Assembly: GCA_902791035.1 (NCBI GenBank)
Contig: CADAUA010000016.1
Location: 1-42,684, forward strand
Direction of reading: 5' to 3'
DNA: 42,684 bases
Source: an uncultured Coriobacteriaceae bacterium
GTDB lineage: Bacteria > Actinomycetota > Coriobacteriia > Coriobacteriales > Atopobiaceae
Below are positions 1,601 to 42,684 of this stretch, in pieces (position 1 is the first letter of the stretch; each line of letters starts with the position of its first letter). Both the position numbers and the translations under genes were made by a program. The notes beneath the pieces are model-generated. The model did not search any database, had not been told where the DNA came from, and saw only the letters and a list, made by a program, of their open reading frames with translations.

Positions 1601-1697
1601 GGCGGGTCCCTTCTGTACGGGGCTGTGTCTGTCTGGCCCTTACCTACCCAAATGCTATCGGCCATATACCATTCGCGCGCCACTCGCCAAGAAGCGG

Positions 1698-1828
1698 ACC
1701 TGCAGGTGACATGTCATTTGCAGGTGCATCCGCCCCCGCGGCGACAAGGTCGACAACCTATCTACCTGCGCTTTTGCAAACTGTGCCCTTTGCGCGTGGC
1801 ATCTGCAAGTGACATGTCACCTGCAGGT
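1698..1828. repeat. Palindrome-core-palindrome element, copy 1
   Basis: Two 28-base palindromes centred on ACATGT occupy 1698-1725 (arms ACCTGCAGGTG and CATTTGCAGGT) and 1801-1828 (ATCTGCAAGTG and CACCTGCAGGT). Their centres are exactly 103 bases apart. The 75-base core holds GCGACAAGG, CTACCTGCG and CAAAC. All these parts recur, ungapped and at identical spacing, at 6721-6854. The element lies between the nitroreductase start and the phosphatase stop. Confidence 0.85.
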
Positions 1829-1853
1829 GGGTCCCGCAAGGCGCCAGCGCGAC

Positions 1854-1890
1854 GACAAGCACCCCAGACAAGCACCCCAGACAAGCACCC
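1854..1890. repeat. 13-base tandem repeat, about three units
   Basis: GACAAGCACCCCA is repeated almost three times, ending at the stop codon of the minus-strand phosphatase gene. It is probably replication slippage; no function is visible. Confidence 0.7.
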
Positions 1891-2759
1891 TACTCCGTGA
1901 AGCGGTCGCGCAAGGCCGCGATCCGCGCGGCATCGAGGCCGTACTCCACCTCGAAGTAGGTCTCGTAGCAGCCGTAACGCGCGAGGATCGCACCAAGGAC
2001 GGCCCGGCCCATCCGCTCGCTCACACCGGCGCGCATGAGGATCTCCTCGGGCAACTCGGGCACGTCGCCCACGTCGTCACCCAGCTCCTGCCGCGCGAAC
2101 TCGAGAATCTTCTCGACCCGGTAGGCATTGGTGAGCAGATACTCGTACAGGGCGTCCTCCTCGCTGACGCCCAACGCCAGCAGCACCAGCATCGCTGCCA
2201 CGCCCGTGCGGTCCTTACCAGCGGTGCAGTGGAAGAGAATCGGCACGTCCCCCGCCTCCAGGTGGGCAAAGAGCGCCCGGTAGGCCGCGCTGCCAAATGC
2301 CATGCCCACATAGAGCTCGTTCATCACCTGCTGCGCCTGGGGTGAGTCCATACTGACTTCCCCGGAGCCTGCCATGGGCACGGCGGCCCCTCCCCGCGCC
2401 TCCTGCTGCGCCTCCAGGATGCGCGCGATGCCCTCGGGCGAGAAGTTCACCTCGTCGTTGCGCGCATCGAGCATGGCGCAGACACGTTCGTAGGCCACGC
2501 CAGGCAGCTGCGGATCGGGGAGCTCCTCCACCTCGACGCCACTGCGCAGGTCAAGGTCGAACCGTAAGCCCAGCCGCACCAGACCCTCCCGCTCCGCCGG
2601 CGACAGCCACGCCAAGGCGGCGGAACGCCAGATGAGCCCGTGCCTCACCGTGCGGCCACCGACCGTCTGGTAACCGCCCAGCTCGCGGACGTTGTTCGTC
2701 TTTTGGAACGTCGGGTCCTCACCCGGCCCGAAGGGACCGTACTTCTGCTCTGGGGTCAT
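1890..2759 (-). CDS. Tyrosine-protein phosphatase (Y_phosphatase3 type)
   Basis: The 289-residue product carries the cysteine phosphatase loop HCTAGKDRTG, with the nucleophile Cys at residue 178 and Arg at 184. The N-terminal NNVRELGGY and HGLIWRSAAL motifs are typical of the bacterial Y_phosphatase3 family (related to MptpB/LipA phosphatases). The AGKDR loop is the form linked to dual protein or phosphoinositide phosphatase activity in this family; the real substrate is unknown. The general acid Asp would lie in the FDLDLRSGVEVEELPDP region. No signal peptide is seen. ATG at 2759 is preceded by GAGAGGC. The gene stands alone, with a divergent non-coding stretch upstream. Confidence 0.92.
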   Translation of the reverse strand: MTPEQKYGPFGPGEDPTFQKTNNVRELGGYQTVGGRTVRHGLIWRSAALAWLSPAEREGLVRLGLRFDLDLRSGVEVEELPDPQLPGVAYERVCAMLDARNDEVNFSPEGIARILEAQQEARGGAAVPMAGSGEVSMDSPQAQQVMNELYVGMAFGSAAYRALFAHLEAGDVPILFHCTAGKDRTGVAAMLVLLALGVSEEDALYEYLLTNAYRVEKILEFARQELGDDVGDVPELPEEILMRAGVSERMGRAVLGAILARYGCYETYFEVEYGLDAARIAALRDRFTE

Positions 2760-2938
2760 GCCATGCCTCTCGAATCGCCTCGTATGCCCTCAGCCTACAG
2801 GGTCGTGCGGCAGATCAGCACCAAGACGGGACGTTCCACAGGAGAAACCCGCCATTACGGCGCCGTTCCGCAGCAAAAGGCGCCCCGCCTCGACCAGTCC
2901 AGTCCGATCAGCACGCTCCTATGCATAGGTTTGCGCTC

Positions 2939-3046
2939 CATACTCGGGGGTGGCGGAATAAAGTCAGCGTTCAGAGGGGTTACAAACAGGAAAAGTGGAG
3001 TCCGAAGCATTTGAACGCTGACTTTATTCCGCCACCCCCGAGTATG
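2939..3046. repeat. Perfect 35-bp inverted repeat with 38-nt loop (fold-back element)
   Basis: Bases 2939-2973 and 3012-3046 are exact reverse complements: the left arm begins CATACTCGGGGGTGGCGG and ends AAAGTCAGCGTTCA. The 38-base loop has no recognisable gene. The stem is far longer than a terminator and has no T-run. No clear target-site duplication was found. It could be a solo MITE, a pair of insertion-sequence ends, or a structured RNA. The rest of the 2760-3414 gap shows no supported gene. Confidence 0.85.
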
Positions 3047-3414
3047 CATCGCGATCATCCGCACTCAAAGGGGCAAACTGACCTTGGCAACGCGACATGA
3101 GGCACCCCTCTCGCCGCCTCGTAGTCGTCCGTCCCAACCAACCCCAGCTCATGCGAGCAACCCAGCTACAAGGACTCCGACATGCATGGAGACAGGACAA
3201 CCAGCGAAGCCACACCTCCGACGGCCCGTACAGCGCCGTCAGGCCTGCATAGGCCTCACGTCGTAATGTGTCGCCTACGTTCACGCACCGATAACATCGC
3301 GTCACTCTGTCACCTTCCACCGAATGCACGGGCCCGTCTGTGTCTCGCTGGATGACAATTGCCTCGCGCGGCATGCAATTGGCACGTCCGACGGGCCGAC
3401 TTAAGGAGAGGGCT

Positions 3415-5184
3415 ATGGACACTCGGCTTCTGGAAGTGGCGGCAGGCAAGGCACCGGCTGACCTCGTGATCAAGAACGGCAAGGTGGTCAACGTCTACAC
3501 GGCGGAGATCCTGGACGGCGGCGTTGCCGTTTGCGGCCAGACCATCGCGGCAGTGGGCGACGTGGACTACTGCATAGGACCCGACACCAAGGTGGTCGAC
3601 GCGGGCGGCGCCTACATCACGCCCGGCTTCATAGACGGCCACATCCACCCGGAGAGCTCCGACCTCTCCATCCGCCCCTTCGCCGAGGCGGTCCTCAAGC
3701 ACGGCACCACCTCCATCATGACCGACCTGCACGAGATCGGCGTGGTCTCAGGCCTCGAGGGCATCGAGGCCATCATCGAGGAGAACGAGGCCACCGACCT
3801 CAACCTCTACTTCGTGGTGCCCAGCCACGTGCCCTTCTCGCCCGCACTGGAGACCAGCGGCGGCGCCTTCAACGCGGAGATTATCGCCGAGGCCCTCAAG
3901 CGCCCCGACGCCGTTGGCATCTCCGAGTGCGTGGGCCACTACATCCTGGCCGGCTTCCCCGACCTCATGAAGTCGCTCGATGCCGTCAAGGCGCCCGGCC
4001 TCTCCGCACAGGGCCACCTGCCCGACATGACTGGCCCCAACCTCAACGCCTGCCTGGCGGCCGGCGCCTCCACGGACCACGAGGCCCTGGACGGCCCGCA
4101 GATCGTGGAGCGCCTGCGCGGCGGCTGCCACGCCATGCTGCGCGAGTCCTCGGCGGCGCGCACCCTGGCCGATCAGACCAAGTTCCTGGTGGAGTCCGGC
4201 GTGGACACCACCTACGCCTCCATCGTGACGGACGACCTCCACTGCTGCGACCTGGCGGAGACCGGCCACCTGGACCACCACATCCGCGTGGCGCTGGGCG
4301 CGGGCCTGCCCTTCGTAAAGGCCATCCAGATGGTCACCGTCAACGCGGCGCGCGGCTTCGACCTGGACCGCACCATCGGCGGCCTGGCACCCGGCAAGCG
4401 GGCGGACATCAACCTCGTGACGGGCGACACGGCAGACACCTTCTCCGTAAGGAGCGTGTGGTCCGCGGGCAAGCAGGTGGTCGAGGACGGCCAGCTGCTG
4501 GTGCACTACCCGGTGGCCGACCACAAGCCCTGCGTGCTCAACACCTGCACGCTCCTGCACCCCATCACGGCGGACAGCTTCAAGATGGCCGCGCCCGAGG
4601 GTGCCAAGCGCGTGAAGGTCAAGGTCATGGACACCCTGCCCTGGATCCCCATCACGCAGCCGCGCGAGGTTGAGCTTGACTGCTCGGACGGCTACGTGCA
4701 CTGCGACGTGAGCCAGGACGTGCTCTACATAGCCCAGGTGGAGCGCTACGGCAAGAACGGCAACGTGGGCAAGGCCTTCATGGGCGGCTTCCACCTGCAG
4801 AGCGGCGCCGTCGCCTCCTCCGTGGGTCACGACAACCACAACATCATCGTCATGGGCACCAACTTCGAGGACATGGCCCTGGCCGTGAACCACCTAGTGC
4901 AGATCGGTGGCGGCCAGTGCTACTGCGAGGATGGCGTGGTGGTAAAGGACATCGCCTACCCGGTGTGTGGCCTTCTCTCCGACCTCTCGTGCGACGAGCT
5001 TGCCGCCGAGAAGAACGCCCTCAACGAGGAGCTGGCCAAGCGCGGCTGCATCATCCGCTACACCTGCATGTTCCTCTCGTTCATCTGCCTGGCGGCCCTG
5101 CCCACGCTGGCCGTGACCGACCATGGGTTCATCAACGTCCTTACCATGCAGATAGAGGACCCCATCCTGGGCGTGGTGGCATAG
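3415..5184 (+). CDS. ade: Adenine deaminase
   Basis: The 589-residue product is a bacterial adenine deaminase (amidohydrolase superfamily) converting adenine to hypoxanthine and ammonia in purine salvage. Metal ligands are visible in GHIHPESS (His76, His78). GHLPDMTG near 200, DHEAL near 221 and TDDLHC (272-277) hold further catalytic-site residues of the Ade family. ARGFDLDRTIGGLAPGKRADI is the usual strand before the C-terminal Ade-specific domain, and HDNHNIIVMG lies in that domain. Length is normal (about 570-600). ATG at 3415 sits six bases after AAGGAGAGG, so the longer upstream frame is not used. A guanine deaminase gene follows 106 bases later on the same strand, making a purine-salvage unit. 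The last residues (LGVVA) are complete. Confidence 0.96.
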   Translation: MDTRLLEVAAGKAPADLVIKNGKVVNVYTAEILDGGVAVCGQTIAAVGDVDYCIGPDTKVVDAGGAYITPGFIDGHIHPESSDLSIRPFAEAVLKHGTTSIMTDLHEIGVVSGLEGIEAIIEENEATDLNLYFVVPSHVPFSPALETSGGAFNAEIIAEALKRPDAVGISECVGHYILAGFPDLMKSLDAVKAPGLSAQGHLPDMTGPNLNACLAAGASTDHEALDGPQIVERLRGGCHAMLRESSAARTLADQTKFLVESGVDTTYASIVTDDLHCCDLAETGHLDHHIRVALGAGLPFVKAIQMVTVNAARGFDLDRTIGGLAPGKRADINLVTGDTADTFSVRSVWSAGKQVVEDGQLLVHYPVADHKPCVLNTCTLLHPITADSFKMAAPEGAKRVKVKVMDTLPWIPITQPREVELDCSDGYVHCDVSQDVLYIAQVERYGKNGNVGKAFMGGFHLQSGAVASSVGHDNHNIIVMGTNFEDMALAVNHLVQIGGGQCYCEDGVVVKDIAYPVCGLLSDLSCDELAAEKNALNEELAKRGCIIRYTCMFLSFICLAALPTLAVTDHGFINVLTMQIEDPILGVVA

Positions 5185-5193
5185 GACCTGGCA

Positions 5194-5220
5194 GGCCAAG
5201 GGTGTCTGTCGCCCTTGGCC
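5194..5220 (+). terminator. Hairpin between adenine and guanine deaminase genes
   Basis: GGCCAAGGG and CCCTTGGCC form a perfect 9-bp stem with a 9-nt loop, 10 bases after the adenine deaminase stop. The following bases CGTTGCATTTGT are only weakly T-rich. It may be a leaky terminator or an attenuator letting some read-through into the guanine deaminase gene. Confidence 0.55.
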
Positions 5221-5290
5221 CGTTGCATTTGTGATACTGGATGGGACCCGGTGCCGCGTGCGCCGGGCCCCTTGGGCTTGGAGGAATGCA

Positions 5291-6667
5291 ATGGCGCAGG
5301 GTGTTTCGGGCGCGTACCTGGGGACCTTCTTCCACACGCCGGTCTACGGCCAGATGGAGTACCTCAAGGACGCCCTCATAGAGGTGGACAAGGACGGCGT
5401 GATCACGCGGGTGGCCCTGCCGGCGGACGCGGACTACGCGCAGCTGGTGGCCGGCTACCGCCAGGCGGGCACGCTCACCGAGCTGCCGGCAGGCTGCGTG
5501 GGCCTTCCCGGTTTCGTGGACATCCACGTGCACTCGTGCCAGTGGCCCCAGTCGGCCCTGGCGCTCGACGAGCCCCTCTACCTGTGGCTCCAGGAGAAGA
5601 CCTTCCCGCTGGAGTCGAAGTTCGCAGACCTGGACTTCGCCCGCACGGTCTATGCGGACCTCGTGGACCAGCTCTTTGCCCGCGGCGCCACCACCGTGGT
5701 CTACCTGGGCAGCGCCCATCTGGAGGCCACGGTGGAGTTGGCGCGCATCTGCGTAGACAAGGGCCAGCGCGCCCTGGTGGGCAAGACCGTGATGGACGAC
5801 CCCGAGGCCAACCCAAGCTACTATCGCGACGCCTCCGCCGCCAGTGCCGTGGCGGACACCGAGACCCTTATCCACGAGGTGGAGGGCATGCAGCACGACT
5901 GCCCGCAGGGCGTCTGGCCGGTCATCACGCCGCGCTTCATCCCCAGCTGCACCGACGAGGTGCTCAAAGGCCTGGGCGACCTGGCCGCCCGCTACGACTG
6001 CTATGTGCAGACCCACTGCAACGAGGGCCAGTGGGAGCACGACACGGTGCTCGCACGCTTTGGCAAGGAGGACCCCTACGCGCTGCAGGACTTCGGGCTC
6101 CTGCGCGACCACTCGATCATGGCCCACGGCTGCTTCCTCACGCCGGAAGAGGGCGAGCTCTTCGAGCGGCTTGGCGTGGCCGTGGCCCACTGCCCCATGT
6201 CCAACCCCTACTTCGGCAGCAGCGTGGCGCCGGTGCGGCGGCTGCGCGAGCAGGGCGTGCGCATGGGTCTGGGCACCGACATCTCCGGCGGCTACAGCCC
6301 CAACCTCTACGAGAGCATCCGACAGGCGGTCATGAGCTCCCGGCAGCTTGAGACCGGCGTCAACGCGCTGGTACCGGAGGCCGAGCGCGGCGGCGTGCCC
6401 GACTCGCGCATCTCCGTCGTGCAGGCCTTCTGGCTTGCCACCAAGGGAGGCGGCGAGGCGCTGGGCCTTCCCGTGGGGGACTTCGAGCCCGGCATGGCCT
6501 TCGACCTGCAGGTCATAGACACCAAGCGGCGGTGGTCCGATCTCACGGGCTTTGGCGTGTTCGACGAGCCCCAGGACCAGCTGGCGCGCATCCTCTACCT
6601 CTCCAACCCAGAGAACATCCGGCAGGTCTACGCTCAGGGTAGGCTGGTCTGCAACAAGGACGCGTAG
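5291..6667 (+). CDS. guaD: Guanine deaminase (amidohydrolase)
   Basis: The 458-residue product matches guanine deaminases of the TrzN/ATZ-like amidohydrolase family, which convert guanine to xanthine and ammonia. Zinc ligands and active-site residues are in HVHSCQWPQ (His79, His81), QTHCNEGQWE, MAHGCFL and LGTDISGG. VAHCPMSNPYFGS is the conserved substrate-binding strand. Length fits the family. ATG at 5291 lies five bases after GGAGGA at 5280-5285, so the earlier in-frame ATG at 5231 inside the intergenic hairpin region is unlikely. It probably works with the upstream adenine deaminase to feed hypoxanthine and xanthine into salvage or nitrogen use. A palindromic repeat element follows 54 bases after the stop. 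Confidence 0.93.
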   Translation: MAQGVSGAYLGTFFHTPVYGQMEYLKDALIEVDKDGVITRVALPADADYAQLVAGYRQAGTLTELPAGCVGLPGFVDIHVHSCQWPQSALALDEPLYLWLQEKTFPLESKFADLDFARTVYADLVDQLFARGATTVVYLGSAHLEATVELARICVDKGQRALVGKTVMDDPEANPSYYRDASAASAVADTETLIHEVEGMQHDCPQGVWPVITPRFIPSCTDEVLKGLGDLAARYDCYVQTHCNEGQWEHDTVLARFGKEDPYALQDFGLLRDHSIMAHGCFLTPEEGELFERLGVAVAHCPMSNPYFGSSVAPVRRLREQGVRMGLGTDISGGYSPNLYESIRQAVMSSRQLETGVNALVPEAERGGVPDSRISVVQAFWLATKGGGEALGLPVGDFEPGMAFDLQVIDTKRRWSDLTGFGVFDEPQDQLARILYLSNPENIRQVYAQGRLVCNKDA

Positions 6668-6720
6668 ACGCGACGGCGGCGGGAGCGGCGGGAGCGGCTG
6701 AGACGGTTTGAGCGGCTGTG

Positions 6721-6854
6721 GGCACCTGCAAGTGACATGTCACTTGCAGGTGCCTCCCGCCTTCGAGCGACAAGGACAACAAGCCCGCTACCTGCGGAAA
6801 CACAAACAGCGCACCAAGCCCCGCCCACCTGCAACTGACATGTCACTTGCAGGT
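6721..6854. repeat. Palindrome-core-palindrome element, copy 2
   Basis: A perfect 34-base palindrome (6721-6754, arms GGCACCTGCAAGTG around ACATGT) and a near-perfect one (6827-6854) have centres 103 bases apart, exactly as in copy 1 at 1698-1828. The core shares GCGACAAGG, CTACCTGCG and CAAAC with copy 1 at the same offsets. The element lies between a plus-strand gene end and a minus-strand gene end. Confidence 0.88.
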
Positions 6855-6911
6855 GCCCCCACCGCTTGGACCCCGGGTACCGCGGCAGGGCGCCTGGCTA
6901 TCAGTCCTCTA

Positions 6912-35060: not shown

Positions 35061-35182
35061 GGTACCCGAAAACAATCACGCACTTGGAATCGCTATGCCG
35101 ACCATAGCAATTCTCTGACCTGCGTATATATGACTTACAACCACATGCTGAGGCGTCAAGTGTATGATTGCCCTTGGGCACC
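35061..35182. repeat. 122-bp inverted-repeat module, copy 1
   Basis: The left end GGTACCCGAAAACAATCACG and the right end (finishing GCCCTTGGGCACC) are imperfect 27-base inverted repeats. The same 122-base unit is at 41039-41160. TTGCCC at 35169-35174, a 17-base spacer and TACGTT suggest a rightward promoter leaving the module. No gene follows. The stretch 34986-35303 otherwise holds no supported gene. Confidence 0.75.
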
Positions 35183-35303
35183 GCAGGTGTTACGTTCTGA
35201 CGCCATGCATTCCGCTGGCAACCACATTGCAGAAGCAGCCACAATAGGCATCTGTTGCTGGTAACTGGGATACGTCGCGGCTACCCCGCAGACCGAGAGA
35301 CAC

Positions 35304-35413
35304 GTGTCAGGGGGACGGTTCTCTCGACACGCAAGCTCGGCGTGTCAGGGGGACGGTTCTCTCGTCAGGACGTGTCAGGGGGAGACGTGTCAGGGGGACG
35401 GTTCTCTCGACAC
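35304..35413. repeat. Array of GTGTCAGGGGGACGG repeats, four units
   Basis: Units start at 35304, 35342, 35372 and 35387. The complete form is 27 bases, from GTGTCAGGGGGACGG to TCTCTCGACAC; the third is cut short. Units one and four are both followed by GCAAGCTCGGC. An inverted copy lies at 36416-36442, on the other side of the esterase gene. Confidence 0.85.
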
Positions 35414-35499
35414 GCAAGCTCGGCACCCGATATTCCGTCTCCTCGGGCAAGCGGCTACCCTTGAGACGTCCCCGCAGGCCGCAACCAGAAGGGCGCCAC

Positions 35500-37429: not shown

Positions 37430-37493
37430 GGGCACCAGGGAGTACTCCCCTAGTGCCCGAAAGTGGGCGCTAGGGGAGTACCCTTTGGTGCCC
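37430..37493. repeat. Pair of inverted 29-bp palindromic repeats
   Basis: Two 29-base units, 37430-37458 and 37465-37493, are inverted copies of each other (about 26 of 29 bases) and each is itself nearly palindromic around GAGTAC. They could form large alternative hairpins after the DUF3021 gene. A third copy is at 29846-29876. Two GTGCATCTTGCC direct repeats follow. Confidence 0.7.
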
Positions 37494-39271: not shown

Positions 39272-39328
39272 GCCGGCAGGCCCGGCGCCAGGCCCTTTGG
39301 CACACCCGTCTGTGTTTGATTTTCTCGT

Positions 39329-39443
39329 CGAACATTCGTTTCTCATATGCTAAAATGGGTTTGCTGCAAGGGGAAGGGCCACCAGATCGAAGGGGTGCAA
39401 AGAAGGCCGCCGGAACCGGGTCCCGACACTTTGGCGCGAGAGC
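39329..39443 (+). ncRNA. Duplicated promoter-leader region of the Rpn gene, copy 1
   Basis: These 115 bases match 42570-42684 at 112 positions; after the GGG following the -10 box the copies are identical for 84 bases. TGC-TAAAAT (39348-39356) is an extended -10 element. The transcribed part is rich in GGGG, GCC and GGC runs, including CCGGAACCGG and CGGGTCCCG, and can fold. I recognise no known riboswitch family. Identity beyond the promoter suggests a structured leader or mobile-element end. Confidence 0.5.
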
Positions 39444-39557: not shown

Positions 39558-40559
39558 ATGAACCAGACCACGCACGTCAACCACATGCCCGACAGCAATC
39601 GCGAGGCCATCGAGGGCCTGTGGCCCAGCCTCGACTTTACCGACGACTACATGTTTGGGGCGGTACTCAGGTCCAACCCCGATCTCTGCAGGCGCCTGCT
39701 CGAGTCCATCCTGGACATCCCCATCGAACGAGTGGAGATCATCACGCCCCAGCGCGAGTCCCGACCGTCGGACCGCGGCAAGTCGGTGCGGCTGGACGCC
39801 TACGTGCAAGACGGCAACGGCAGGGTGTTTGACATAGAGATGCAGCAGTACCGCGCACGCCAGCTCGTCAAGCGCGCAAGGTACTACCAGGCCGTGCTGG
39901 ACACGGAGCAGCTCGACAAGGGCACCAGCTACCAAGAGCTTCCCGACACCTTCGTCATCTTCTTCTGCACCTTCGACCCCTTTGGACGAGGACTCAGGAG
40001 GTACACGTACTGTCAGGCCTGCAGGGAAGACGGCTCCTTCGCGCCCTGGGATGGCAGCGCGCGGGTGTACCTCAACGCCAAGGGCACCCTGGGTGCCATA
40101 AGCGATGACCTGCAGGGCGTCCTGGACTACATGACGGGGCATAATGTGCCTGAGCGTGGGCTTGCGAAGGACATCGAGCGCGCCGTTACCGACGTGCTCT
40201 CTTCTGAGGATCGGAGGCGAGAATACGTGGACATGCAGCTGAGGATGCAAGACGAGCATGATCGCGGACGCGAGGAGGGCTTTGCGGAAGGCCACGCCGA
40301 GGGCCTCGAGCAGGGGCGCCAGCAGGGTCTCGAGCAGGGGCGCCAGCAGGGCCTCGAGCAGGGTCTCGAGCAGGGGCGCCAGCAGGGTCGCGCACAGGGG
40401 CTTCAGCAGGGAATCGAGCAAGGGCAGGAGAAGGCCCTGCAACTCCTAGCTCGCCTCTCGTCGTTGCTCAAAGAGGCCGGGCGCTCCGATGAGCTTGCAC
40501 AGGCAATCTCAGATTCCCAGAAGTTCGAGGCCCTCTGCAAGGAGTTCGACCTCAAGTAG
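39558..40559 (+). CDS. Rpn-family recombination-promoting nuclease (PDDEXK_2)
   Basis: The 333-residue product has the Rpn/PD-(D/E)XK transposase-like nuclease domain: DDYMFGAVL near residue 29, RLDAYV (Asp80) and FDIEMQQ (Glu94, Gln96). TFVIFFCTFDPFG and the NAKGTLGAIS region follow. Residues about 240-295 are a low-complexity EQGRQQGLEQG repeat coded by tandem DNA repeats (40302-40400), a common feature of these proteins. Rpn proteins are linked to RecA-independent recombination and, in recent work, to phage defence. ATG at 39558 has GAGGAG five bases upstream; ATG at 39507 is an alternative via the mini-ORF. The preceding leader has a second copy at the window's right end, which suggests another Rpn gene there. 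Confidence 0.9.
   Translation: MNQTTHVNHMPDSNREAIEGLWPSLDFTDDYMFGAVLRSNPDLCRRLLESILDIPIERVEIITPQRESRPSDRGKSVRLDAYVQDGNGRVFDIEMQQYRARQLVKRARYYQAVLDTEQLDKGTSYQELPDTFVIFFCTFDPFGRGLRRYTYCQACREDGSFAPWDGSARVYLNAKGTLGAISDDLQGVLDYMTGHNVPERGLAKDIERAVTDVLSSEDRRREYVDMQLRMQDEHDRGREEGFAEGHAEGLEQGRQQGLEQGRQQGLEQGLEQGRQQGRAQGLQQGIEQGQEKALQLLARLSSLLKEAGRSDELAQAISDSQKFEALCKEFDLK
40302..40400. repeat. Tandem repeat coding the Gln-rich part of the Rpn protein
   Basis: Units of CTCGAGCAGGG with GCGCCAGCAGGG alternate four to five times in frame, giving LEQGRQQG. Such tracts expand and contract easily by slippage without breaking the frame when the unit is a multiple of three. Confidence 0.75.
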
Positions 40560-41038: not shown

Positions 41039-41160
41039 GGTGCCCGGAAACAATCACGCACTTGGAATTGCTATGCTAACCATCGTAATTCGTTTACCTG
41101 CACATATATATCTCGCAACTACCATGTATGATGCCAAGTGTACGATTGCCTTTGGGCACC
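41039..41160. repeat. 122-bp inverted-repeat module, copy 2
   Basis: Same length and order as 35061-35182: left end GGTGCCCGGAAACAATCACG, right end ATTGCCTTTGGGCACC, as imperfect 27-base inverted repeats. TTGCCT at 41147-41152, a 17-base spacer and TATGAT form a good rightward promoter, and similarity to copy 1 continues about 30 bases past the module. The following stretch to 41504 shows no supported gene. Confidence 0.78.
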
Positions 41161-41504
41161 ACACGTGTTATGATTCAGCAGTATGCACTCTGTCCACCTA
41201 CATACAGGTACGATGCGGCAAATGGCACGGTACCAGCGCAAACAAGGCACCCGCTGACGCTTTGCGCGTCTAGGTGTTAGAGGGTGCACGGATGACCGGG
41301 GCAAGGTGAGTTGGTCGAGCGCCCCTTTCGTCTTACTCTCTCGTAGAGCAGCTTTGACGCGGGCGTCTACCCTCCCAGCCTCACCTTCGTCCAGATGCAC
41401 CAGGGAACGCAGCGCTCGCGTGTATCCGTAACGGCATAGATGCCCGTATCCGGCACATTACCGAGGATGACGCCTTAGGGCATTGCGAGAGCAAGGAGGC
41501 TCAT

Positions 41505-42359: not shown

Positions 42360-42569
42360 TGCGCACGGTTGGTGCGCTTGCCAAAGGTCACATGCTCCAG
42401 AGCTAGCTGCGGGAAGACGGGAAAACCGCTGCGGGGCCGCCGGGTGATGCCGACGGCCCCTTTGTGATGTGCCTCAGCACGCCGAGACAACATAACGTGA
42501 CAGAGGGTCAGACCCCAGGGCTTCCTGGACCCCAGGGCTTCCTGCATTCAAAAAAGAACAAATTTTCCC

Positions 42570-42684
42570 CGAACAATCGTTTCTAATATGCTAGAATGGG
42601 TTTGCTGCAAGGGGAAGGGCCACCAGATCGAAGGGGTGCAAAGAAGGCCGCCGGAACCGGGTCCCGACACTTTGGCGCGAGAGC
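42570..42684 (+). ncRNA. Duplicated promoter-leader region, copy 2 (runs off window)
   Basis: Almost identical to 39329-39443, including the extended -10 element (TGC-TAGAAT at 42589-42597) and the 84 invariant bases after it. By analogy another Rpn-family gene should start roughly 115 bases beyond the right end. The region between 42360 and 42569 shows only CCCAGGGCTTCCTG repeats. Confidence 0.5.

Follow-up and report, generated by a model that had tools for sequence, protein, structure and literature searches.

Paired palindromes in the window and across the genome

The window analysed here, a stretch of 42,684 nucleotides, is contig C16 of a 2.69 Mb genome and carries two copies of an element in which ACATGT-centred palindromes enclose a directional core, together with a second pair of elements that differ in their arms (Table 1). 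Genes flanking the elements in the window encode a nitroreductase, a tyrosine phosphatase, two amidohydrolases, and a nucleotidyltransferase. A protein encoded next to copy 2 has named relatives in Olsenella, Tractidigestivibacter, Slackia, Ellagibacter, and Collinsella, which identifies the organism as a coriobacterium. The four ACATGT-centred palindromes have 22-base centres at 1701-1722, 1804-1825, 6727-6748, and 6830-6851, from which the arms run on for approximately four bases or more each way, and both palindromes of copy 1 are imperfect. Counted on both strands, the palindrome pattern matches the window eight times as compared with 0.01 matches in shuffled sequence, which confirms the two palindrome-core-palindrome copies recognised in a preliminary description of this DNA. 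The ungapped, partly conserved core that the same description attributed to both copies was likewise borne out, CTACCTGCG representing the conserved core CGCAGGTAG read on the opposite strand.

Table 1. Positions of the element parts within the window.
Feature	Position	Strand	Remarks
Copy 1, palindrome	1697..1726		imperfect, CACCTGCAAGTGACATGTCACTTGCAGGTG type; right end of unit in core direction
Copy 1, directional core	1741..1796	-	core model R2, E 1.5e-6; minus strand reads CGCAGGTAGA; CTACCTGC at 1762-1769, plus strand
Copy 1, second palindrome	1800..1829		centre 103 bp from first copy 1 palindrome
Copy 2, palindrome	6723..6752		palindrome pattern; perfect over 30 bases
Copy 2, directional core	6767..6828	-	core model R2, E 2e-5; CTACCTGC at 6788-6795, plus strand
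Copy 2, second palindrome	6826..6855		centre 103 bp from first copy 2 palindrome
Element of arm family f7	35061..35192	-	arms AATCACGCACTTG / CAAGTGTATGATT; core at 35102-35151, core model
Element of arm family f7	41039..41170	-	same arms as 35061-35192; core at 41082-41121, core model

Across the genome, the palindrome pattern yields 49 forward matches, as compared with none for a reversed control, and a model built for the 102-bp unit from sequence alone identifies 34 units bearing these arms (arm family f1). The spacing of 103 bases, originally described as invariant, is exact in both window copies and does not hold genome-wide: centres lie 102, 103 or 104 bp apart in f1 units, and 113-114 bp apart in two copies where one side carries a 10-11 bp insertion. 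Most f1 units possess a full palindrome at each end, approximately ten have the inner half only at one or both ends, and three solitary palindromes each lack a core. The f1 arms are near-identical and dispersed over unrelated loci; each palindrome continues weakly into its own flanks (p 0.010), while the unique flanks display no complementarity over the whole element (p 0.34). Rather than two isolated copies or a random spacing, the genome thus contains dozens of copies of a doublet with constrained spacing and a conserved core, in keeping with the REP-like unit that had been suggested from the window and with a BIME-like one. The exact palindrome has no match in IMG/VR or in the GTDB genome collection, and its pattern finds weak, chance-like matches only across 60 relatives.

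Several further repeats are present in the window and in the genome. Two other REP families (GTGTCAGGGGGACGGTTCTC, GTCACGCGGGGTCGGAGTTC), found at 35304-35424, 36423, and 494-537 of the window as well as at loci L056 and L057, occur beside RAYT genes in other parts of the genome. A hairpin family of the GGGCACCAGGGGGTACTCCCCTGGTGCCC type occurs at 37430-37493 of the window and at loci L060 and L053, flanking one RAYT gene at L060 and nesting around f1 elements at L053. Between a phosphatase gene and an adenine deaminase gene lies a long inverted repeat (window 2922-3063) with 52 bp arms that are 87% complementary and 38 bp apart. In addition, a 122 bp direct repeat (95%) is located at 39322-39443 and 42563-42684, and an open frame contains ten 12-base in-frame repeats in a run at 40266-40433.

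A conserved core between varied arms

Once aligned in one orientation, the f1 units have a directional core in common, and its motif TTGGTTGCAnTTCATATAAcCGCAGGTAGAnGnnTTG also sits between quite different inverted repeats elsewhere in the genome, twice within the window itself. These other repeats include arms of the types GAACTTCAGGTTAGTAGAG (f2), GAAATAACGGACAG (f3), and GACGTCAAATCGGAGTTTTTCGGTG (f4), REP-like hairpins (f6), and the f7 pair of the window. The sequence logo of the core, an AT-rich block followed by CGCAGGTAGA and then TTG, is identical in f1, in the other arm families, and in relatives. A model of the core gives approximately 60 to 80 matches across the genome, of which the weakest are uncertain, and the model of the 102-bp unit also matched places that hold a core only. 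The widely conserved part is the core and not the palindrome, a fact that the window alone could not reveal. The core model matches 78 of 100 relatives at E-values of at most 0.05, these values being rough, while only two genomes from beyond the order match it among 119 sampled across the phylum Actinomycetota, both marginally and at approximately chance level; the core is restricted to the order Coriobacteriales. Literature searches, conducted with most subscription papers out of reach, found no published description of the element.

Since the core model contains no information about the arms, the arms provide an independent check. In relatives, a strong inverted repeat (score of at least 24) encloses 50 of 94 core matches, as compared with none of 121 control positions at the same loci. 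The other 44 matches have no strong inverted repeat nearby, and some of these may be chance matches or decayed copies. Clustering by 12-mers places 97 elements in 30 arm families, some with palindromic arms and others with plain inverted repeats, and the arms differ from genome to genome while the core stays constant; one Collinsella tanakaei locus (L183) belongs to the same arm family as locus L157. Arms of the f4 family, which like f1 is multicopy, occur at 12 places and mostly surround a different core, indicating that arms and cores are exchangeable. At loci L237-L243 of the genome under study, f4 arms surround this second core, of the CATAACCCGGGTTGTGGGGCG type, and a GAAGTAGA / TCTACTTC pair lies approximately 20 bp outside them. 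At another locus (L106 of genome G064, near position 1514), two cores overlap head to head (CTACCTGCGGATATATCATATTTCCGCAGGTAG), and the core may, in places such as this, constitute half of a dimer site.

The combination of a directional core, a TATAAT-like block within it, and inverted repeats on either side is what would be expected of an invertible promoter (inverton), in which recombination between the arms would flip a promoter located in the core. Such a role is highly improbable: in many cores GCATAA, GCAAAA or GTGTTT takes the place of the TATAAT-like block and CGCAGGTAG is retained, convergent genes flank many copies, and no recombinase site is common to the arms. A promoter reading of the core was rejected in its own right, as the -10-like block is not the conserved part.

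Among mapped cores, 53 of 59 lie outside predicted genes, and the other six fall within low-scoring predicted frames. Neighbouring genes are convergent at 19 cores, co-directional at 20, and divergent at 11, and there is no bias of the core towards the coding strand or with respect to GC skew. An orthologous site between genes named thrB and livF from sequence context permits a view of turnover within one related genus: a clear element is present in two of the 20 genomes checked (G077 and G223), and the remaining genomes carry other sequences, some with inverted repeats of their own, or little at all. Comparison of the arms of the two elements by eye shows that one stem position has altered on both sides, from A-T to G-C. 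Element turnover at this site is fast.

Fast turnover, the dispersal of near-identical arms over unrelated loci, the multicopy f1 and f4 families, and the differences in arm families between genomes would all be in line with selfish spread. They raise the possibility, which we regard as a secondary one that falls well short of even odds, that the elements are non-autonomous and mobile (a MITE or REPIN-like unit), with arms that would serve as transposase sites and a core that would supply a host-factor site for the transposition complex. In form the element resembles a MITE, having terminal inverted repeats, no coding capacity, a length below 200 bp, and multiple copies. A MITE in the strict sense, one of the identities proposed in the preliminary description, was nevertheless not upheld. 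By eye, the outer flanks of at least 30 elements displayed no target-site duplication outside the arms, although very short ones could escape such an inspection, and no transposase was found with f1 arms among the Y1 transposases searched. The genome contains five Y1 transposase genes; the flanks of four could be read and all carry other REP families, while the fifth yielded no flanking repeat, so that a link to RAYT genes likewise found no support. Furthermore, the usual MITE pattern is the opposite of what is seen here, where unrelated arms surround a conserved core.

Helical phasing and a proposed role in DNA folding

The centre (dyad) of the inverted repeat is quantised relative to the core. 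Measured as the difference of the right and left gaps, its offset from the core takes values of -13, -2.5, +8, and +18 bp in nearly all of the 97 elements, which span 30 families. The best period is 10.25-10.5 bp, with a p-value of approximately 6e-10 (calculated from 29 families, each contributing a single value; none of 20,000 uniform nulls reaches it) that serves as a guide only, since arm families may have common ancestry. Within families, arm-to-arm spans step by approximately 10.5, 21 or 32 bp: spans are 102-104 and 113-114 bp in f1; 91-93, 103, 113, and 124 bp in f3; and 141-142, 152, and 163 bp in f4. Together, the quantised dyads and the stepped spans indicate that the rotational relation of each arm to the core, and of one arm to the other, is constant, which points to a protein complex on duplex DNA, of which such a relation is expected, and not to an RNA loop.

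The phasing weighs against a small structured RNA, the second identity put forward in the preliminary description. In an RNA of this kind, the arms would form a long terminal stem and the core a conserved loop acting in transcripts. Some data are in line with such an RNA: single strands fold far better than shuffles, the core opposes its co-directional neighbour genes in this genome (17 opposed, 3 along), and arm mismatches on the core strand are more often A-C than G-T (72 to 44, counts that are not independent), the skew anticipated for an RNA with G-U pairs on the opposite strand. The mismatch bias could, however, reflect strand-specific mutation, and relatives do not show the orientation bias (4 to 5). 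Moreover, the window has no Rfam match, the core has no consensus RNA base pair, and an RNA loop would not need a spacing quantised by helical turns. An RNA is therefore an improbable identity for the element.

The third identity proposed, a paired protein-binding site, is the best reading of the doublet, the sites being candidate sites on DNA. The copies are short, non-coding, intergenic elements, composed of an arm, a core, and an inverted arm, that with a probability of roughly 0.5 act as double-stranded DNA folded by a protein bound to the core. A protein conserved within the order would bind the directional core and bend it, so that both arms would come to lie alongside each other with the same rotational register; the complex would then be closed by a second, arm-bridging protein or by the matched arm sequences themselves. 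The sequence of the arms would be free to vary, provided that one arm is the inverted copy of the other and that they are spaced by whole helical turns. Complexes of this kind might influence nucleoid structure or transcript ends, and a mobile origin would be compatible with them, the helical phasing in that case serving a transposition complex. Standing against the folding proposal is the 17-to-3 bias in core orientation, since a purely structural DNA element leaves it unaccounted for; the bias is, however, absent in relatives. Also weighing against the proposal are the 44 core matches in relatives that have no strong inverted repeat nearby and the failure of PF00216 (HU/IHF) to match in this genome.

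The IHF consensus is WATCAA-N4-TTR, and the GGTAGA-N4-TTG layout of the core recalls it. IHF or HU as the core binder was rejected, as a search for HU/IHF-type genes (PF00216), which does not extend to the actinobacterial-type IHF, found no match in this genome.

A bolder and rather doubtful extension of the folding proposal is that the complex needs arms that are identical to each other and not any particular arm sequence, with the bending protein at the core setting a register-matched pairing of duplexes. If true, the element would represent an order-wide genomic clamp, the arms of which drift freely provided that both drift together. Many arm families around one core, with spacing that changes only in helical-turn steps, amount to a natural mutagenesis experiment with which to address what palindrome doublets around a bending site do in bacteria. 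A role in DNA folding is thereby made directly testable, and the core provides a specific bait for its binding protein.

Comparison with known systems

Three known systems invite comparison. REPINs, or RAYT-associated REP doublets (PMC2817692), resemble the present elements in having an inverted palindrome doublet and a spacer, and RAYT genes are present in this genome; they differ in that here the core within the spacer is conserved while the arms vary, and in that the readable RAYT flanks carry other REPs. In addition, known RAYT-linked REPs have a GTAG head, which the f1 arms lack, the f1 unit having its single GTAG within the core, at a distance from the palindromes. The 155 bp Correia element (NEMIS) of Neisseria, which binds IHF (PMC2229807), is similarly short and non-coding, with terminal inverted repeats and an internal site for a bending protein, a site that is putative in the present case. 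Correia elements, however, have one family of terminal inverted repeats, TA ends, and target duplications, none of which were seen here.

The closest known kind, and the model for the proposed mode of action, is the BIME-1/RIB (RIP) element of E. coli, in which two inverted REPs surround an IHF site (PMC2817692; Boccard and Prentki, 1993, as cited there). Both these and the present elements are intergenic, approximately 100-130 bp in length, and present in many copies, and the families with palindromic arms also have the layout of two inverted palindromic units about a conserved internal site for a protein, a site that is putative here. The core consensus of the Coriobacteria element differs, however, and the lack of a PF00216 match in the genome leaves an internal IHF site unsupported. 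Because no HU/IHF-type gene matched, the arms are not the REPs found beside RAYT genes, and no target duplication was seen, the element is not classed as BIME-1/RIB or as Correia. What sets it apart from BIME-1/RIB, in addition, is the presence of one core with some 30 arm families across an entire order, the arms being placed in helical-turn steps.
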